Assembly: GCA_030248195.1 (NCBI GenBank)
Contig: JASAND010013643.1
Location: forward strand, 1 to 64,000
DNA from: Trissonchulus latispiculum
Taxonomy: Eukaryota > Nematoda > Enoplea > Enoplida > Ironidae
Direction of reading: 5' to 3'
Length of the DNA stretch: 64,000 nt
Part shown: positions 15,845 to 59,590 of the stretch, piece after piece
Layout: each line of letters opens with the position of its first letter
How positions within the stretch are numbered: the first letter of the stretch is position 1
The notes under the pieces: generated by a model
Seen by the model: the letters and a program-made list of their open reading frames with translations, nothing else
Database searches by the model: none
What the model was told of the DNA's origin: nothing
Program-made: the position numbers and the translations under genes

Positions 15845-16911
15845 TGTATCCACTGAAGGTGTCAGTCAACCAGAGAAGGCACGTACAGTCCCGCCAACTC
15901 GCGCGGGTTGATTCGGTATCTCGATCAAGGCCGAGCTAGGATGGCCAAAAAAATTTGGGCAACACTCGCTCTTATTTAATATGTTTGTGCAACAATGTTT
16001 GATTTATGGCACACCCAGTTGTTTACAAACTTTTTGGCATTGGCACATGGCAATGCTTTACTTGTACAAATTGTAAAGATTTTAGCCTATAACTAATTCA
16101 TTGTTTTCTGTCAACCCCAGTGAACAGTTTTGATTATATACTCCCTCTTTGAACTGACGACATCAAAATAGTCTTGTCATCATTCTTGGCTCTGATATGA
16201 AATGTCATTTCAAGGATGAACCAGTGAATTTGAACCAGTTTTGTTTATGGCCACTTGAGTTTATTCAAATATTATACAATTAAGTTTATTCATTTCCCTC
16301 AAGCCATTTCTGCATCTCATTTCGCTGCTCATTTCACTAACTTTTGCCCGTTAGACAAAATGTCGGAACTTCTAATTGCTGTGGAAGATAGTCTAGTTCT
16401 TGGCAGTTTTGGGTTCTATTTGCTTCTATCTCTGGCACCATCTCAAATTTCATCTTCTCATCTCTGAGCGAAAAGGACTTCGTTCAAGAAAATTTAATAT
16501 ACATACATAAAATGAGATTTTTAATAATACTTGATAATACTAATTTTTCTAAATAACATTTCAGAAATGATTTCATTTTTATAGGTGTATAGGTGTACCT
16601 ATTGTTGATGATAATGGCACAAATGGTTTAACTAATTGCTCCAGACTCTAAAATGTTGATTTATAGTAATACAAACTTTTGTGGTGACTACGCAATATAG
16701 CTTTAGATAAACGATTGTTTGTCTTCGAAGCGGCTGTTGTTGTTGTGCTGTTGATGTTGTCAGCACAGTTCACATTAATCCTTCACATTTTTGATTCAAA
16801 AATGGAATATAGTTCTTAGGTATAGGTAGTTCTTTGTTAGCCTTAGTACTATTTGGTGCGATCCGGATCCGGTGGTTATCTGCGGTCAATATTGCATATT
16901 CCTTTTTCAGT
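15843..16911 (+). promoter_or_regulatory. Upstream region of peptide gene 1
   Basis: No coding family is seen. It ends in a pyrimidine-rich splice acceptor (CCTTTTTCAG, ending about 16,910) only 12 bases before the precursor start codon. The start of transcription therefore probably lies upstream in this stretch, in a non-coding first exon, unless the acceptor receives a trans-spliced leader. No convincing TATA box was identified. A (GTT)n-like patch lies at about 16,736-16,760. Confidence 0.3.
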
Positions 16912-16922
16912 TAACTGTCAGG

Positions 16923-17114
16923 ATGAGGATTTTACTTTGCATTGTTCTGTTGGCAGCTTTGTGCTACACTATGATTGATGGTTATCCCTTGGACGATTCC
17001 CTGGTGTATTTCAGTGATATCGAACCTTTCTTAGATCGATCTCAACGAGCCAGCTGGGTGGAGGAAGCAGCACAGAAAATGGATGGTTATGATCCTGGAC
17101 GATACGGGAAATAA
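16923..17114 (+). CDS. Secreted amidated-peptide precursor 1, 63 residues
   Basis: What is seen: Met at 16,923, a basic residue and hydrophobic core (ILLCIVLLAALCY), and likely signal cleavage after Gly20 before YPLDDS. Residues 37-42 hold an RSQR site (RXXR, furin-like). The protein ends DGYDPGRYGK and stop. Gly-Lys at the extreme carboxy end is the classical donor for alpha-amidation after removal of Lys, giving an ...GRY-amide. If only the signal peptide is removed, the product is 41 residues starting YP; if RSQR is cut, it is 19 residues starting ASW. The upstream in-frame Met in the intron-like sequence at 16,872 is rejected because a splice acceptor lies between. AATAAA overlaps the stop codon (17,110-17,115). 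A paralogue of identical length is at 23,578. No known family is assigned; a distant NPY/NPF-like relationship (YP start, RY-amide end) is only a guess. Confidence 0.72.
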   Translation: MRILLCIVLLAALCYTMIDGYPLDDSLVYFSDIEPFLDRSQRASWVEEAAQKMDGYDPGRYGK

Positions 17115-18129
17115 AATTGAAATTGATTGTAATGTATAATCACTGTCCGTAATGAGTCTGTATTAAATGTGATGATGTGACTTGTTAAATTCACGTTTAG
17201 AACACTTCATTTACCCTACAGTAAAAGTGAACTGAATTGCTCATTGTCAACTTGAAATTTTCAGCTACTACTTAACTTGTAGCTATTTAACACAGAAATT
17301 AGCATAGGATAACAAAGTAAACTCGTGAAGCGTTTTAAACCAGCAAATTAACGTAAAACTGTCTAAACAGCACAACAGTGCATGCGGAAGCGGCACCTTC
17401 CAGTTTAGTAGCTGCACGTACCAGGCAAGAATTGCAGCCTATTAGAAGCACAACAAAGATTATTCACAGTTAAGATTTGATACAGCACTGGAAAAGGATG
17501 GCTAAAAATTATAGCAGAAACTTTTAAGTTTGAAAACTTAAAAGGTTGTTTTTGCAAGTTTGCAGAAATGCGCCGGCCGTAGGCTTACTACTGCTACAAT
17601 CCACAACAACAACATGGACAACAACATTGGTTTAGATTAGAACGATCGCTACTCGCTCGCCAAGGATCTGTCTTCATTAGTCAAGTATTCATAATTTCAA
17701 TAAAACTCGTAAAAGACTTAAAATGGACAATTAGAAATGGCGTTTAGATGAAAAAGAATCCCTGTGTTATTGCTAAATTTATTTGCATGAAAGGCGGTTT
17801 TTCTATTGTTTCTACTTTCGTTTCGTTTTGTTTCGTTTCTACGTTTCTTTACTTCTAGCTCATCCCATCAAATTCGAAGTCATTTTCAAAAAGGCCTTCT
17901 GAGCGAATCAAAATCGGGTTTTCATTTATCACCATCTTTAGTCACTGTTGATAAGCGTGAGGCAGTTATCTCAGAATACCGGACAGTCTGAGCTTTCTTG
18001 AACAAAAAGAATTTCTGTCAGTTTGGCTTGGGAGAATCGTTTTCTGTCATCGGCTTCCGCGTCCCGTTTCTGGATTGCGTTCCAGCATCCGTCGGATTTC
18101 CTTATGTACCATGCGATGCTGGACCGCTT
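17115..18129. other. 3' flank of peptide gene 1; no other gene seen
   Basis: Contains ATTAAA at about 17,162, a possible polyadenylation signal for the peptide gene. The remainder shows no recognisable coding or repeat structure. An ORF at 17,806-17,991 has no recognisable features. Confidence 0.3.
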
Positions 18130-18289
18130 ATAAAATGCAAGAAATACAAGATAAGGATAGAAAACAAATCTTGACTATTTACACGGGTGCAGAAAGTCGA
18201 TAACTGTTTGTAGGAGGTAGACATGGAGCCACCGACCATTTTGGGTGATTTCCAGGAATTGGTTCAAGGGCCAGTTCACGAAGAGAAAG
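18130..18289 (+). CDS. Candidate TATA box and first coding exon
   Basis: TTATAAAAT lies near 18,128-18,137. About 90 bases downstream an ATG at 18,223 opens 22 codons beginning MEPPTILGDFQELVQG. They end in phase 1 at a good donor (AAAG/GTAATT, exon end 18,289). The spacing fits a TATA promoter with a short leader. No family is recognised and no matching downstream exon could be assigned, so the gene may be broken by the mobile elements that follow, or this may be chance. Confidence 0.3.
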
Positions 18290-18909
18290 GTAATTACATA
18301 TTCTCTTTGTAACACTTTAAATTGATACTACCAAATTAACTGTTAACAATTATTAAGTTAGATATTAGGAACATTTATCATAATCTCCAAAGAAGCCTTA
18401 GAAACAAAGCCACAGCACATACATACAATGTCACAGTCTGCAGAATTAGGTGGGTCGATGTCCCTTATAGAAAGCAGCGTTTTCTACCACCAAAGACGCG
18501 TGCATTATTTACCAAGTTATAAGACCGTCAGCTCAGCTTCAGCAGACTTAAATTCTGACGTATTTTTGTAATGCATCAACTGCACACTATATTGTGAAAT
18601 TCCTTTTCTGCCTTTCGATGCTTTCAGTTCAGCTTAACCTGGTTTCAAATTAATTCACATCATTTAATGTATTACGTGCTGAATTACATTACACTGCTTC
18701 GCATCCTATTAAATGCAGGCACTGCTTCACACGTTACCGTTGTTGTTAGTTTCCTTTGGGTCATGCTAGTTTGCATTAACTTTACTGGCTTGGATGATAG
18801 ATTATAGATTATGACTTATAAGATTAAGATTATAGATTAAGACACCTATAGATTAAGTTATCATTACTGGATCAGCTGCAAAACAAACTTTTCTCTTTGC
18901 TATCAGAGC
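18290..18909. other. Nothing recognised
   Basis: AT-rich sequence with short GATTATAGATTA-type repeats near 18,795-18,860. Confidence 0.3.
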
Positions 18910-19446
18910 AAAACCTTTGGGATCTTTTGCGCTTTCCCCCCAGCCCTAACTTTTGATTTTTTGACCAATAACTTTGAAATTTGGATGTGGGTGCATACTT
19001 GGGGCTGATGAATTCAAAAATTCAAAAATTTTAAAATTTTTAAAAATTAAAAAATTCAAAATTTTAGTTGGGTAAGTGGGGAACCAAAAAAGTTTTGAAA
19101 AAACTTTTGCTGAAAACTTGCATACAGGGGTTTTCTGGGGCGCTGAGCACGAATCTGAAATCTGTTTTTCGATTCAGCTTTTCGTTAGCTCAGCATAAGC
19201 TTACATGTTAAGCTTAAAATTGTAGAAAATCCAGAAAACCCCTGTATGCAAGTTTTCAGCAAAAGTTTTTTCAAACATTTTTTGGTCCCCCTTCCCCTTA
19301 CCAAACTAAAATATTATATTTTTTAAAATTTTAAAATTTTTGAATTCGTCAGCCTCCAGAATGCACCCACACCAAATTTCAAAGTTATTGGTCAAAAATT
19401 CAAAAGTTATGGCTGGGGAGAAAAGCGCAAAAGATCCAACCTTTGT
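18910..19446. mobile_element. Foldback element, arms about 240 bp
   Basis: The left arm (GGGATCTTTTGCGCTTTCCC, then ...CATACAGGGGTTTTCTGG) is repeated inverted on the right (CCAGAAAACCCCTGTATG... then GCGCAAAAGATCC). The centre is AT-rich and no coding is seen. Position 1-60 is a fragment of the same family. Confidence 0.75.
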
Positions 19447-20045
19447 TTCTACGTTTACACTGTTTCCAAGAAATTGAAGCCCCCTCTCAACAACGCTCAC
19501 TATCCATGACACCCCAAAAGAACGTAGTTTATTCGCTTAGAGCATATTTTGTATATATGCATTATGCAGGATTTGATCCTCCTGGGCCCTGTTGCACGTT
19601 GCACTAAAACGTTTGGACTTAGTATGCAACGCGGACAGTTACTACGTTAAACTGCCCACACTTACTGAGCGTGGACAGTTAATGGACACTTTAATATTAC
19701 CCCCGCGCACAAGTATGTAACGCGGACAGTTACAATAAGACTTTAGTGTAAGGTCAGATAACAGATTTTGACTAATTGTAACATTAACGACATTGTTTGT
19801 CAGATTTAAAACTGTCGCCAGTCCATCACCAAACTGCCGCCAAAGTGTTCTTCGCACAAGACTTAATCAAGTGTAGGTTGAACAAAAGGCTATCACAATC
19901 GGTTGCTTTGTCGAATTTCAAGGTGCTATATACATTTTGGCTCCTGAGGGTCGATTATCACACTATCCCCCAATGGAATAACAATTTTTCCACTATATAA
20001 ATATTCAAAAAATTCTAATCCAAAATGAGCTGTTAGTTTAGTTTG
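19447..20045. other. Short direct repeats, no gene
   Basis: The motif AACGCGGACAGTTAC occurs near 19,627 and 19,719, with a related GTGGACAGTTAA near 19,670. A GGGCCCTGTTGCACGTTGCA motif at about 19,585 resembles the ends of GGGCCCGTTGCA MITEs such as the one at 49,208. Confidence 0.35.
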
Positions 20046-20260
20046 CTAGAAAACATAGCCGGTTGTTGACTTTCGGTCGTCGACATCGCGTGCGAAGTAG
20101 GCATCGGCCTAGCCAACTGGTCGATCTTTCTGCTGTTAGGGTAGAAGTCCAATCCCTAGGTTGAAGTTCCTTTTAGATATTTGAGAACCCGTCGGATGGC
20201 TGTCATGTGTGTCAGTCCAGGGTCAATCCAGGCCAGAGATATTGCAGTTCAAATCTCTAC
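20046..20260 (-). pseudogene. Copia pol fragment (RNase H), frameshifted
   Basis: The minus strand reads MTAIRRVLKYLKGTS in one frame, then after a frameshift DAYFARDVDDRKSTTGYVF and a stop. These are the two neighbouring hallmarks of the Ty1/Copia RNase H region (the R-LRYLKGT block and the DAD-A-D-DDRKSTTGY block). An in-frame stop and the frameshift make it non-functional. It is probably the 3' part of the same broken minus-strand Copia element whose gag pieces lie at 22,278-22,649 and 23,105-23,530. Confidence 0.65.
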
Positions 20261-21589
20261 AACTTAGTATTTACGTTGGTATGCCTCGCTGTGGGCTTCG
20301 AAGTTGCGTACACATGGGATGACAAGAGACTGTGGCATGACTGTACATCAATTTAAAGCCTTTACCTGTAGGTGTTTATTACCGAATAAATTACAGTGGC
20401 AAGTCAAGCAACGAGCGAGACACGGCGTTTGGACGATTTGGTAAAGCTATTCCGACTGTCATTTGCTTCAAACTTTAACTCGCTATAACTGTCTCATACT
20501 GTTTTGTAGAGACTGGTGCAAGAAGAAAAAATGTTCAGGACATCGAGAGCTTCAATTTGATATAAAATGTGGCTATATTTGAAAAAGTTGAAAATTTAAA
20601 ATTTTTTGCCCAAAGCTGTCCGCCATGCTATCGTAATATGTCAACAGAGGAAAACACAGGCTATTGGCATGAAACTATACACGCTATAAGCTAAATGTCA
20701 GCCTTTTAGCATGCCAAATTTTATTGAGATACCTTAAGATATGACTGACTTATGTAGCAGCAAACATGGAATTTTCGAAAAATGACGCTTTTTGAGGAAA
20801 AATGGAATTCCTGCTACCAAAACTGCGAGCTACTGAAAAGTCCTGATAGGGATTGATTATATGCAAAATAAAGCTCTAACAACATACTGTGCTAATATCT
20901 AAACGCGAAGTTCCTACACCAAAGGGGTTAGTTCAGGACAGGACAACACGTCCACTGACCTACACAATTGTAGAACGATTTTGAGCAAAAATCGACTTCT
21001 CTGGATTTTGAAAATTCGTATAAAATCAGCGGCCCTACGGAAAATAACCTCGTATAGATATTAGCACTTTAGCTAGTCAAAATTAGGTTTACAGCGAGTG
21101 GTAGCCGATTTGCTCTTACACAGCGCTCAAAGTTTTGGTAGCAGAAAAATTTTCCTAACTTTATCATTTTCCTATGTTTGAGACATGTCGGGGTCACCTT
21201 TGGAGGGCTATTGTGAATGATAGGAAAAGTTTTGCAACAAACGCTCTTGTCTTGTTTTGCGGACCCATGAGGCCTACAAAATATGTGAAAATGAGAAAAC
21301 TCGGAGATGGTCGAAAAATCGCGACCCCCCCTAAACTTTATATCTCGAACATGGTTGTCCTTGACCAAAAGCTGCAAACGTCGTGCTGAACAGTGACCAA
21401 AACGATAGTACCAAAGCGTACCTTCAGTGTGTGCGATAACGTCGTAAAGTCTGTTGTCTGTTGGAACTTCACAATGCATTCACTTGTTTTCCCAGGTACC
21501 TAGGGCCAGAGGTTGTCCAGAAGGAAAGTGAAGTGCAACGCTTTGTCGACCAAATTTTACTATGGCACCATTCGCCGATCGTCATCTTA
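20261..21589. other. No gene; weakly similar to other non-coding repeats here
   Basis: A stretch around 20,440-21,060 has the same style (ACTCGCTATAACT..., long GAAAATTTTT runs) as the TTAA-flanked elements, but no ends were identified. A 136-codon minus ORF (21,069-21,479) has no recognisable features. Confidence 0.25.
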
Positions 21590-21955
21590 GGATCAAGTCG
21601 ATATAAAGTGTCACCAATAGAGTTTAAGCTAGTTTAGGATGCTACTGAGACTTGAGTCTGTAGATAGCTTGTATAGCTACAATGCATCTGCAGAAGTTGC
21701 ACAACAGCTAGTGAACCTTTTCTCCTGATTTAGCAGTAAATCTTCGTTCACTGCTACGGAGACAAAGGATTCCAAACATGGTTGGAAAGGATGACAAGCT
21801 TCCTGGTTTTCGAAAGTTGACAGGAAACTCAAACTGGCCAATCTGGAAGCTTCGTATGAAAGATTTCTGGAGGTCCATGAACTGTGGAAATTAATCGATG
21901 GAACTGAACGTGAGCCCCCCATTCCAGAGGCCTTACCTGCAGACTCCACCGCATA
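21590..21955 (+). pseudogene. Copia gag amino-terminal fragment, + orientation
   Basis: The + strand encodes a GNSNWPIWKLRMKD block typical of Copia gag amino-termini (N-x-x-W-K-x-R-M) but breaks frame soon after. The segment is a close inverted copy of 23,150-23,530; the left arm begins AGGATCAAGTCGATAT and the right arm ends ATATCGACTTGATTCT. Confidence 0.65.
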
Positions 21956-22277
21956 GTCATTCGCCGATCTTACCGAGAAGAAGTTACAAGTAAGATCCGA
22001 TACATACAAAACTTCTTGAAACCATAGGATATTGGTATCGTCACCTACTTTGCACTTTAGTTTTCATCTTTCCGACGCCTTCAGCCATGCACGCATGGCC
22101 GTCTCCAGGCGTTACGTGCTGTGGCTGCTTAAACAGTACATAATCGTCAAACAGATATTTGATATTTGCGTAAAACATATATATATATATTTGTAAAACA
22201 AACCATATGTGCCGTTACCCCTGAATCCACAATGAACTCTGATCGTTCTACTTGGGCCCATATAACGCAGTAACGAG

Positions 22278-22649
22278 TCATTGTCTAGTTCGTCTTGGTC
22301 TTGCTCTTCTACACCAGCTTGTCTGACTTGTTTCGACCAGACGGGTAGTTTCGTGCGAGATGTGGGACACCTCCACAAGTGTAGCAGGAACCATCTTTTG
22401 TGTTACAGTGTCGGGGTGTTCCGTGCCCGCGAAGAAAGTCGTTTCTCCCCCTTTACCACGACCACGAAAGTCCGAGTAAATCCGTTCCCCTAATGATAGA
22501 ACAGAGTTGTTGGGAGGTGCGCTGATCTTTCTATCTACTTCACTCCGAAGGGCTTCTTCAAGTTCACCGAGGGAAACCTCGCCTTTAGTGAGGAACGCTT
22601 GGCGCATCAGCTGAATGTTTGGGTCAGGATGTTCCTCGAGCCCGTGCAA
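22278..22649 (-). pseudogene. Copia gag carboxy-terminal region with zinc-knuckle remnant
   Basis: This minus-strand frame carries gag-like sequence (QLMRQAFLTKGEVSLGELEE). In the adjacent frame it has CYTCGGVPHLARNYP, a CCHC knuckle whose last Cys has become Tyr. Frame changes are needed to join the parts. It belongs with the minus-strand Copia pieces on either side. Confidence 0.55.
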
Positions 22650-23104
22650 TAATATGCAACAACTTGCAAGTCGTTTCCCAAATTGACTTAAATGTTAGCA
22701 ACTCGTTGCACAATGTTGATGTGAACTATGCTACCCAGTGCGCCAATGATGAGAGCGCGGCAACTTCTATCTGACTTAACTATACTCTCATATATTCAAC
22801 AACAAACTTTAGGATTCAATCACATCTTGTAAAAATAATTTCTTGGTGTTCGTAGCATAGTTCACATCAAATGTCTTGGTACTTGCTGAAATATTGGATG
22901 ACATTATTGCTGGTGGTGAATCTTAAATTCAACAGTCTGTCTATCAACTGAAGTTGATTCGATAGGGAAGGACGGTCAAAGGTCTTCACAAGGGCGTCCC
23001 ATTTCTTTTTGGGGTGTCCAAGCCGTCTTTCATAATCACATGAAGCACAGTATAGCTTCGACAGTTCGATTCAAAATATTCCTGACTCGAGCTGCCTTTG
23101 CGTT

Positions 23105-23530
23105 GTAGCGCTCGGTCTCTTGCAACTCCTGTCTATGTTCTTAACGTTGTGCTGCGGTGGAGTCTGCAGGTAAGGCCTCTGGAATGGGGGGCTCACGTTC
23201 AGTTCCATCGATTAATTTCCACAGTTCATGGGCCTCCAGATAATCTTTCATACGAAGCTTCCAGATTGGCCAGTTTGAGTTTCCTGCCAGGCTTTTGAAA
23301 ACCAGGAAGCTTGTCATCCTTTCCAACCATGTTTGATTCTAATCCTTTGTCTCCGTAGCAGTAAACAAAGATTTACTGCTAAATCACTAGCTCCAGTGAA
23401 AAGCTTCACTAGCTGTTGTGAAACTTCTGCAGATGCATTGTAGCTATACAAGCTATGAACAGACTCAATCTCAGTAGCATCCTAAACTAGCTTAAACTCT
23501 ATTGGTGACACTTGATATCGACTTGATTCT
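23105..23530 (-). pseudogene. Copia gag amino-terminal fragment, - orientation
   Basis: The minus strand (ORF 23,141-23,326) reads SLAGNSNWPIWKLRMKDYLE and then HELWKLIDGTEREPPIPEAL, typical of Copia gag (UBN2-like). It is the inverted partner of 21,590-21,955. Its outer end lies only about 50 bases upstream of peptide gene 2, so the element forms that gene's immediate upstream sequence. Confidence 0.7.
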
Positions 23531-23577
23531 ATTTGTACGTAGAACAAATTTGTTTTATGTATTTCAGCAAATTAGTT

Positions 23578-23769
23578 ATGAAAACGATATTGCTTTGTTT
23601 TTGTTTGTTGTCAATTTTCTACGACACAGTGAGAGGCAGTCATCCCTTAAAAGAATCAATATCATTTGATGGTGACGTTGTTCCTTTCTTGGAACGCGGT
23701 CAAAGAAGTTGGACGCAGGATGCTAAAAAGAAGACGGATGGTTATGTTCCACCCCGATTTGGAAAATAA
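23578..23769 (+). CDS. Secreted amidated-peptide precursor 2, 63 residues
   Basis: Paralogue of the 16,923 gene with exactly the same length. What is seen: Met at 23,578, hydrophobic core ILLCFCLLSIFY, likely signal cleavage after Gly20 (TVRG/SHPLK), an RGQR furin-like site at about residues 40-43, a lysine cluster (KKK) at residues 50-52, and the end DGYVPPRFGK then stop. The predicted amide is ...PPRF-NH2. Shared columns with gene 1 include VPFLER/EPFLDR, QR-SW, DGY-P-R and the terminal GK. An acceptor (TATTTCAG, ending 23,567) lies 10 bases before the ATG, so the 15 extra in-frame residues upstream are probably intronic. AATAAA overlaps the stop codon. Conservation of every processing site while the rest diverges argues for function. 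Receptor and role are unknown. Confidence 0.72.
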   Translation: MKTILLCFCLLSIFYDTVRGSHPLKESISFDGDVVPFLERGQRSWTQDAKKKTDGYVPPRFGK

Positions 23770-24638
23770 AACTGATTAAAGTTTCTGTGCTAGTGCTATT
23801 AAATGTTATAAATGTTGATATATGTATGTTACCGTATGCTTCTGCAGAGATCTTCTCACGCCTCCATGGCAAAGGGATTGCTCGATGCTTTTTTTTCAGG
23901 ACTATGGAAAATATAATAACCATATCGAATTTACCTCAGTCAGTGCGTTTTTCAACAGCTACAGCAGAAAAATTTGCGCATAGGTCAGCAACGAATTAAT
24001 CAGACTGGAAATTATTTACATCGACTATCAGTGCTTGCTCTGCTTTATGTCCGGGAAGTGTGTAGTATAAGATTAACTAAACAAATCATCATTAAAGATC
24101 ACTTTGACGGCTCACCACGCAGTCAGAGATTTCTTTCGCCCACACAAAATTTTACAATTGTAGTTTTCAAAAAATCAAATTAAATATAACATATTATTAA
24201 ATAATTAACCAATCAAATCAATCAATCCATCAGTCAATCAGCCAATCAATCAACCAACCAATCAATCAATCAATCATCAGTCAATTAATAATAGGAAGAA
24301 GAAATAAGAAATAATAATAAATAGGAATTCATAAATACAGTAAAAATTAATATTTAGAAATAAATGTTTGTAGTAACTTCCGAAATTGACGACATATAGA
24401 CTCAAGATATGGTACACATTTTGTCGCGATAATACTAAATGTAAGATCATTTCTTTCTGTGTCTAACCTTCATTCAACTATCCATATGATGAAGTAACAG
24501 ATATCGCGGTAAAACAGACTGACTCACAAAACCACGCATTTCCATACAATGGAAAATTCAGATGTGATTTTATGCTGCTGTGCTGATTGTTGTTGTGAAA
24601 GTGCGTTCCTTACAGTTGCTTGCACACCTTCAGGGCAG
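23770..24638. other. Intergenic between peptide gene 2 and integrin gene
   Basis: Contains ATTAAA signals at 23,775 and about 23,797 for the peptide gene and an (AATC)n tract (24,191-24,291). It also holds the presumed promoter of the integrin gene. No TATA box was identified near 24,500-24,638. Confidence 0.35.
24191..24291. repeat. (AATC)n microsatellite, imperfect
   Basis: AATCAATCAATC with occasional CAAC or CAGTC variants over about 100 bases. Confidence 0.85.
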
Positions 24639-41819
<17,181 letters not shown>

Positions 41820-43219: not shown

Positions 43220-44107
43220 ATGTCTGCGTTTCGACCACCCCCGCCATATCTAGAAATCCCTGGTTAAGCAACTATTTCAAGGAGACAATGGAAGGAACTA
43301 TTCGCCATCTACCTCGTTGCCAGTGCAGCAGAAAAATACCCGGATGCAAGAAAGATTGCGATTTTGCTGCACAGCCTGGGCACCGAAGCACAAAGAGTCT
43401 ATCACACCCTGCCAAAGCCCAACGGAGAAGCTGGTTACACCTACAAAGACGTGATAATGCAGCTGGACAACAATTTCGCACCGAAGCAGAATCTGGTAAC
43501 AGCCCGTCATCTGTTCCGCCAGAGAAGACAGAGATCCAACGAACCATTCTCACAGTATCTGAGTGAATTGCGATCCCTACTTCCACCGTGTGAGTTTGGA
43601 GCCACTCAGGAAGACATGCTGCGAGATCAAATCGTGGAAGGCATTCACAATCCTAAAATACGAGAACGGTTGCTCATGGAACACAATCTCACCGTGGAAA
43701 AATGCATCCAGATATCAACTCAGATTGAGAAGGCCTTGTCTGAAGCCAAGGAGCTCATGTCGCAGGAAAGATCCGCCAGTATAAACCACGTGCGCCAGAA
43801 GCCTCGCCGCAAGTTCTCTCACCAGCGCCAGAAGAAACGTGACCGTCGTGTTTCTTCTTCATCTGGATCTGCGTCTGACGGAGAATCACAACGTTCGGCG
43901 GAGGAAGACCAGTGTCGCGCCTGCGGTTCATACAATCACCGAACGCGGAGCCGATCCTGTCCTGCCAACGGAAAGAGATGCAACGTATGCGGAAAGTTTT
44001 GTCACTATGCGAAAATGTGTTGGAACCGCAAATCTGCCACGACCAGAGTGCACACCATCGAAGCTTTAGAAGAACAGAACAGTGAAAATGAAATTGTTAT
44101 AATTTAA
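43220..44107 (+). pseudogene. LTR-retrotransposon gag with one early stop
   Basis: Structural capsid/nucleocapsid protein of a Gypsy-like element. The frame runs from ATG 43,220 to TAA 44,107 (295 codons), broken only by a TAA at 43,265-43,267 (codon 16); it is open from Met at 43,364. The capsid part includes NFAPKQNLVTARHLFRQRRQ and FSQYLSELRSLLPPCEFG. Then come a Ser/Arg-rich linker and two zinc knuckles, CRACGSYNHRTRSRSC and CNVCGKFCHYAKMC (canonical C-x2-C-x4-H-x4-C). The single lesion suggests recent insertion. Confidence 0.8.
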
Positions 44108-55496: not shown

Positions 55497-56050
55497 TGCG
55501 CACCGGATGTGGTCACTGACGCACCGAATTCGTCTTACCGACGCACCGGATTCGGCCTGTGACGCACCGAATTTGGCTTACCGACGCACCGGATTCTCTG
55601 ACGCACCGAAATAGCCTTACCGACGCACCGGATTCGTCCTCTGACGCAGCGAATTTGGCTTACCGACTCACCGGATTCATCCTCTGACGCAGCGAATTTG
55701 GCTTACCGACGCACCGGATTCGTCCTCTGACGCAGCGAATTTGGCTTACCGACGCACCGGATTCGTCCTCTGACGCAGCGAATTTGGCTTACCGTCTCAC
55801 CGGATTCGTCCTCTGACGCAGCGAATTTGGCTTACCGACGCACCGGATTCGTCCTCTGACGCACCGAAATAGCCTTAGCGACGCACCGGATTTGTCCTCT
55901 GACGCAGCGAATTTGGCTTACCGACTCACCGGATTCGTCCCCTGACGCAGCGAATTTGGCTTACCGACGCACCGGATTCGTCCTCTGACGCAGCGAATTT
56001 GGCTTACTGACGCACCGGATTCGGCCATTGACGCACCGAATTTGGCATTC
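55497..56050. repeat. 43-bp minisatellite, about 12 units
   Basis: The unit is GACGCACCGGATTCGTCCTC followed by TGACGCAGCGAATTTGGCTT and ACC. Each unit is two related halves starting GACGCA(C/G)CG(G/A)ATT. Units are nearly identical in the centre and diverge at both edges. Confidence 0.92.
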
Positions 56051-59144: not shown

Positions 59145-59590
59145 TCACGCACGACCGATCGCAAAGACCTTCATGTCATCAGCATAGGCCACACAGTTAT
59201 CATCAGCTAACAAATGCAACACTTCATTAATATAAATGAGAAATAAGGTAGGTCCACAGATGGATCCCTGCGGAACCCCACTGATGACCGAAGCCCAATT
59301 CGAAAATGAGTCATTTAGTTTTACTCTCTGTCTCCTTCCAGTTACAAAAGCGCTAAGAACTTGTAAAAGTTTCCCGCTTATCCCATATGCCTGCAGACGA
59401 AATTTGAGTTTTGGAAGCGAAAGTGAATTAAAAGCTTTTAAGTCAATATATGTCACATCTTTACACAGTTTATGATCAAAAGCATTAGACCAATTTTCAA
59501 GACAATATAAAAGATTCGTTACAGTAGATTTACCTTTACAAAAACCATGCTGATTTGGAGCAAATATATTATCGAAAATATCTAATTAAT
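59145..59590 (-). pseudogene. LINE reverse-transcriptase fragment
   Basis: The minus strand reads NQHGFCKGKSTVTNLLYCLE, then VTYIDLKAFNSLSLPKL, then SGVPQGSICGPTLFLIYINE and YADDMKVFAIG. These are RT motifs from the Q-GF-----ST block to the YADD catalytic box. The first catalytic region, usually DFSKAFD, reads DLKAFN here with one residue missing. It is truncated at both ends. Confidence 0.8.

Follow-up and report, generated by a model that had tools for sequence, protein, structure and literature searches.

Two paralogous genes that probably encode precursors of single amidated peptides in a Trissonchulus latispiculum contig

Results

We analyzed a window of 64,000 nucleotides (positions 1 to 64,000 of the forward strand of contig JASAND010013643.1, assembly GCA_030248195.1, from the nematode Trissonchulus latispiculum), which carries two short open reading frames (ORFs), P1 and P2, that probably encode precursors of C-terminally amidated peptides. 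Both lie on the plus strand, P1 at 16923..17114 and P2 at 23578..23769 (stop codons included), and each holds 63 codons in an uninterrupted frame. The full translation of P1 is MRILLCIVLLAALCYTMIDGYPLDDSLVYFSDIEPFLDRSQRASWVEEAAQKMDGYDPGRYGK, and that of P2 is MKTILLCFCLLSIFYDTVRGSHPLKESISFDGDVVPFLERGQRSWTQDAKKKTDGYVPPRFGK. Their ATG codons are 6655 bp apart, in line with the initial annotation, which had reported two 63-residue ORFs about 6.6 kb from each other. A further in-frame ATG lies upstream of P2 at 23557, and a start there would give a protein of 70 residues.

Within the window, P1 and P2 retrieved each other by tblastn with E values of 1.0e-14 and 8.9e-15, while the runners-up had E values of 0.40 and 0.30. 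The aligned proteins are identical in 29 of 62 columns (47%). Their local alignment score was 140, whereas 5000 shuffles averaged 21 and reached at most 48. When the first 20 residues were left out, the score was still 115 against a shuffle maximum of 47, so the likeness exceeds that of two hydrophobic leaders. At the nucleotide level, blastn of both loci with 1.5 kb on either side gave a single strong piece (17025-17120 and 23683-23775, 70% identity, E 4.7e-6), which spans each ORF's 3' half and breaks off 6 nt beyond the stop codons. The remaining pieces had E values of 0.03 or worse and were mostly AT repeats; a repeat search of the window also picked up part of the pair. P1 and P2 are real paralogues. 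A recent duplication was ruled out by a synonymous divergence (dS) of about 1.3 together with the unlike flanks. The window yielded no third copy; the next best match of a profile built from P1 and P2 (hmmsearch, 2881 six-frame segments of at least 15 residues) had an E value of 1.2.

The divergence between the two ORFs was then set against neutral expectation. By the method of Nei and Gojobori (NG86), the nonsynonymous divergence (dN) was 0.38 and dS was 1.33, a soft dN/dS ratio of 0.28; maximum likelihood gave 0.38, 1.11 and 0.34, respectively. The dN/dS could be computed for 447 of 500 codon bootstraps and lay between 0.12 and 0.70 (2.5-97.5%), with none at or above 1. In a neutral simulation, in which the same 68 nucleotide differences were scattered randomly in 5000 runs, the observed residue identity was reached in 64 runs, a stop-free frame in 434, and both together in 9. 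A hydrophobic start combined with a terminal Gly followed by Lys or Arg was present in 3 of the 225 ATG-to-stop readings of 40-150 residues in the window, namely that of P1 and the two of P2 (one from each ATG), and in none of 20 order-1 Markov windows. Chance ORFs were ruled out by the similarity, the dN/dS, the neutral simulation and the Markov windows. P1 and P2 are constrained genes under purifying selection.

The two proteins have the same layout. Residues 1-20 resemble a signal peptide in both (16923..16982 in P1, 23578..23637 in P2): the mean Kyte-Doolittle hydropathy over 11 residues is 3.48 in P1 and 3.09 in P2, and from residue 21 onward it reaches at most 1.02 and 1.14, respectively. 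The cut in P1 is predicted after ...IDG by the -3/-1 rule, and a cut after residue 20 is likewise predicted in P2. A putative propeptide follows, YPLDDSLVYFSDIEPFLDRSQR in P1 (16983..17048) and SHPLKESISFDGDVVPFLERGQR in P2 (23638..23706), ending in the candidate cleavage site R-x-x-R, which reads R-S-Q-R in P1 (R39-R42, 17037-17048) and R-G-Q-R in P2 (R40-R43, 23695-23706). Beyond this site stand 19 residues in P1 and 18 in P2, and then G-K-stop. The predicted products are ASWVEEAAQKMDGYDPGRY-NH2 and SWTQDAKKKTDGYVPPRF-NH2, and the segments that encode them, with the Gly-Lys signal for amidation and trimming, occupy 17049..17111 and 23707..23766. Both precursors show the general features of amidated precursors, i.e., a signal-like start, a basic site, and a Gly before a basic residue and the stop. 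Every landmark that had been named before is there: PFL-(D/E)-R-x-Q-R with its R-x-x-R, S-W, and D-G-Y-x-P-x-R-(Y/F)-G-K-stop. The earlier description of 41-residue products starting YP or HP held in part. A cut after residue 20 does give two 41-mers, but that of P2 starts SH, and the HP start belongs to a product of 40 residues.

The predicted products differ in charge, with four acidic and two basic residues in P1 and two acidic and four basic residues in P2. Cysteines are confined to the signal segments, and none is found in the predicted mature parts. A low-confidence AlphaFold2 model of P1, with a mean predicted local distance difference test (pLDDT) score of 64.7 from a two-sequence input, placed helices at residues 2-19, 23-29 and 39-53 and left the DGYDPGRYGK tail unstructured. 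A fold search with this model gave no matches, which is uninformative at such a pLDDT.

Acceptor-like sites lie just upstream of both ATGs on the plus strand, one at 16889..16910, with its AG ending at 16910, 12 nt 5' of the P1 ATG, and the other at 23546..23567, with its AG ending at 23567, 10 nt 5' of the P2 ATG. Sites were scored with simple textbook weights and compared over 1947 window ATGs on both strands; 35 of these ATGs have, within 25 nt, a site that scores as well as or better than that of P1, and 61 have one that matches or exceeds that of P2. A common upstream coding exon is unlikely, since the offsets of 12 and 10 nt differ in phase. The aligned ATGs are probably the protein starts, behind an intron in the 5' untranslated region or a trans-splice site. 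For P2, the start at 23578 is favored because the acceptor falls between this ATG and the one at 23557. At the other end, AATAAA overlaps the stop codon of P1 (17110..17115, plus strand) and of P2 (23765..23770, plus strand), and ATTAAA is found additionally at 17162 for P1 and at 23775 and 23798 for P2. These motifs are weak evidence, since AATAAA comes cheaply where the Lys codon AAA precedes the stop TAA.

Upstream of P2 we observed inverted arms (21588-21953 and 23153-23531, pieces 89-99% complementary), which end 36 nt 5' of the acceptor-like AG at 23567. Read on the minus strand, 21588-23531 has, by eye, a likeness to a copia-type gag.

The identities between P1 and P2 were counted by block: 8 of 20 in the signal segment, 4 of 13 in the next part, 6 of 9 in the PFL block, 4 of 10 thereafter, and 7 of 10 at the C-terminus. 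They form 31 runs, and as few or fewer runs occurred in 4608 of 10000 permutations, so the clustering is not significant. As many as 7 identities across the last ten columns were reached in 1011 of 10000 permutations, which makes this count unexceptional. The initial annotation had proposed selection on the processing sites and the amidated end; the permutations do not bear this out, and with two sequences selection on processing sites specifically cannot be demonstrated. The lack of significant clustering is also compatible with P1 and P2 being small secreted proteins that need no cleavage to act, or gene copies of older origin that are in decay, with the landmarks incidental; R-x-x-R is, moreover, a short motif. 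This explanation is very unlikely in our view. Neutral drift rarely preserves both the open frame and the residue identity (9 of 5000 simulations), and Gly-Lys stands right before the stop in both ORFs.

Discussion

Taken with general knowledge of peptide processing, the two sequences suggest the following route. Signal peptidase would take off about 20 residues from P1 and P2, a furin-type convertase would cleave after R-x-x-R, a carboxypeptidase would trim the terminal Lys, and peptidylglycine alpha-amidating mono-oxygenase would convert the Gly to an amide. The products would be a 19-residue peptide ending in ...DGYDPGRY-NH2 from P1 and an 18-residue peptide ending in ...DGYVPPRF-NH2 from P2. 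An extra cut at the shared Lys (K52 in P1, KKK in P2) could free the nonapeptides MDGYDPGRY-NH2 and TDGYVPPRF-NH2. Once secreted, the peptides may signal through a G-protein-coupled receptor of the rhodopsin type.

We consider it probable that P1 and P2 arose by an old duplication and are precursors of single C-terminally amidated signalling peptides of the neuropeptide or peptide-hormone kind. The proposal of paralogous amidated-peptide precursors, which the initial annotation had already made, is still the best reading of the hydrophobic N-terminus, the R-x-x-R, the Gly-Lys, the purifying selection and the splice context. Several points weigh against it. The dS is near saturation and 53 of 500 bootstraps failed, which makes the dN/dS ratio soft. 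Conservation of the landmarks does not significantly exceed that of the remaining residues, as judged from two sequences. The signal segments were called from hydropathy values only. R-x-x-R signals cleavage less strongly than KR does, and dibasic sites are absent from both precursors save for the KKK in P2. With one peptide copy per precursor, repetition lends no support. Finally, no orthologue was found in the collections of proteins, prokaryotic contigs and viral contigs.

Small secreted gland products, for defence, venom, mucus or cuticle, would undergo the same processing and amidation with no dedicated receptor signalling. A signal, a propeptide, R-x-x-R and a C-terminal Gly-Lys generally fit such products too, and the opposite charge balance of the two peptides is what might arise in a diversifying secreted set; the mature parts lack cysteine. 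However, the bulk dN/dS of about 0.28 is more in keeping with an end that is read by a receptor than with a diversifying effector. The last 10 columns, with 7 identities, point the same way but lack significance on their own. We regard a gland function as unlikely.

The same mechanism could also operate in diverged members of a known RFamide or RYamide family (luqin, GnIH/NPFF, CCK/sulfakinin or NPY/NPF) from a poorly sampled phylum, and the difference would be one of ancestry only. The R-(F/Y)-amide end of both products is compatible with this explanation.

The comparison with NPY/NPF had been raised, and doubted, in the initial annotation. Likenesses are a length of about 41 residues if uncut, a single copy, the YP start of P1 and the R(Y/F)-amide end. 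In contrast to NPY, which is helical in the region matching the last nine residues, P1 and P2 have Gly and Pro there, and R-x-x-R splits the 41-mer. NPY/NPF peptides are 36-40 residues long (PMC7314547), a range that P1 and P2, with 40-41 residues, approach only if R-x-x-R stays uncut. They end in RxRF(Y)amide or RPRFamide (PMC6389622; PMC7314547), and their genes have an intron between the second and third base of the codon for the Arg of the terminal RF/RY (PMC7314547). The ends DPGRY and VPPRF lack RxR(F/Y), and coding is continuous through the Arg to Gly-Lys-stop in both ORFs; NPY/NPF was ruled out, and with it the comparison made earlier. A phase-one intron inside the peptide-coding region characterizes the PrRP type (PMC7314547). 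Neither ORF is interrupted, which ruled out this type as well.

In P1 and P2 the peptide closes the precursor, whereas luqins usually adjoin the signal peptide. One luqin from Daphnia is placed next to its signal peptide (PMC7041311). Luqin/RYamide precursors typically have a C-terminal two-cysteine motif, and arthropod members end in FXXXRY-NH2 (PMC7041311). P1 and P2 share the R(Y/F)amide end, and YDPGRY of P1 (Y-x-x-x-R-Y) is a near miss, one Tyr-for-Phe change from FXXXRY (PMC7041311), but YVPPRF of P2 departs from it at both ends. With FXXXRY in neither and no C-terminal two-cysteine module, luqin/RYamide was ruled out.

For CCK/sulfakinin, the insect type ends in DYGHMRFamide and the vertebrate type in GWMDFamide (PMC8921109). 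A Tyr six residues from the R-(F/Y)-amide end and an acidic residue two before this Tyr are points of likeness. However, in P1 and P2 a Gly stands between Asp and Tyr, and His-Met is missing; DGYDPGRY and DGYVPPRF are unlike DYGHMRF or GWMDF, and the family was ruled out on comparison with the insect and vertebrate types. The lophotrochozoan NKY peptides carry a central FW[RQ]P[LM]G[YG] or G[YF]WIWMPAQG, with Lys and Tyr at the ends (PMC6425005). They resemble uncut P1 and P2 in being long peptides with an RY/Famide end (PMC8557429). NKY was ruled out, as the central motifs are absent from both and no Lys is found at the N-terminal end.

The GnIH/NPFF signature is a C-terminal PxRFamide (PMC4062910). 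The P-x-R-(F/Y) of the pair comes close to it: VPPRF of P2 has PxRF, and DPGRY of P1 has Tyr for Phe, a likeness of four residues only. The amphioxus peptide GDHTKDGWRPQRF-NH2 is loosely alike (PMC4077772), and flatworm PQRFa peptides (Sm-npp-13) are mentioned in the same source. In contrast, the amphioxus precursor gives three peptides (PMC4077772), while P1 and P2 would give one each, at the extreme C-terminus; Tyr is the last residue in one of the pair, and the GnIH/NPFF peptides quoted in the cited passages lack the D-G-Y core.

The nearest short string that we found is cnidarian. A Calliactis precursor contains one YVPGRYamide alongside 19 Antho-RFamide copies (PMC7266959), and YVPGRY resembles YDPGRY of P1 and YVPPRF of P2. 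The cnidarian precursors compared here are multi-copy (in addition to Calliactis, four RYamides in the cubozoan Tripedalia), in contrast to the single copy here, and convergence is the simple reading of this likeness. Indeed, short C-terminal motifs arise by convergence. P1 and P2 lack a defining feature of each of NPY/NPF, luqin, CCK/sulfakinin, PrRP and NKY, and we consider descent from a known family quite unlikely.

Database searches gave no relative. No Pfam or NCBIfam family matched P1 or P2 at E values up to 10, NCBIfam being built for prokaryotes. Among PDB sequences, two weak matches were taken as chance ('Extracellular protein 11-1', E 0.037; Neurotrypsin, E 0.85). The protein collection, which apparently contains little animal protein, gave no candidate for the pair alignment or for P2 alone (P1 alone was left out). 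It appears poor in animal protein because an integrin exon from the same window had no homologue at E <=0.001 among 38 candidates. Pattern matches numbered 221 in prokaryotic contigs and 55 in viral contigs, with no confirmed relative in either. Pfam and PDB do cover animals; since the contig collections are prokaryotic or viral and the protein collection is animal-poor, the negatives are weak evidence of novelty. In literature text without supplements, where neuropeptide lists mostly stand, PGRYamide was the only one of the peptide strings sought that was found, in two papers.

More specifically, and tentatively, P1 and P2 could represent a new lineage-specific family of single-copy amidated neuropeptides in an animal group whose peptides are unsurveyed, with the core D-G-Y-x-P-x-R-(Y/F)-NH2 and a receptor or receptors of their own; after the duplication, one paralogue would have become an acidic RYamide and the other a basic RFamide. 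We hold this with less confidence than the general assignment to amidated signalling peptides, but it is a real possibility. Homology searches readily miss short amidated-peptide precursors, in which only a few residues stay conserved. Two paralogues can be compared with each other, which points to the candidate core and renders peptidomics and receptor assays straightforward. If the host phylum is thinly sampled, P1 and P2 would bring in a further peptide system, one with a datable origin. The general view of peptide signalling is unchanged by it.

Other features of the window

An integrin-beta-like gene with scattered exons lies at about 26.5-41.0 kb on the plus strand. Its VWA stretch at 33482-33709 was recognized by Pfam (E 7.6e-7), and by eye we noted EGF-like exons at about 36.9-38.3 kb and a transmembrane/tail exon at about 40.75-41.0 kb, neither of which Pfam named. 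The metal-binding stretch, for which DxSxS is expected, appears by eye as LLCGASNSM at about 26.7 kb, which suggests a degenerate site.

Retroelement remnants were identified by Pfam as a Copia gag at 39473-39901 (minus strand, E 6e-23), a Retrotrans_gag at 43268-44107 (plus strand, E 2e-5), and a reverse transcriptase at 59145-59585 (minus strand, E 1e-17). No match was obtained in the window with Rfam at gathering scores or with ARAGORN. The observed/expected ratio of CpG is 0.81. Between P1 and P2 lies a long imperfect palindrome at 18920-19437, with arms of 129 nt that are 71% complementary and pieces of 52 and 61 nt that reach 94-95%, resembling a miniature inverted-repeat transposable element. 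Diverged copies of an interspersed repeat (...KSV...L.VI....L..L.A.PP...) were seen by eye in translations at about 30.6-32.7 kb and 39.2-40.4 kb. Tracts of CTGAAA-type hexamers occur near 35.5 and 36.5 kb, and a short tandem repeat of about 43 bp at 55690-56014 was noticed as a repeated QRIWLTDA in translation.

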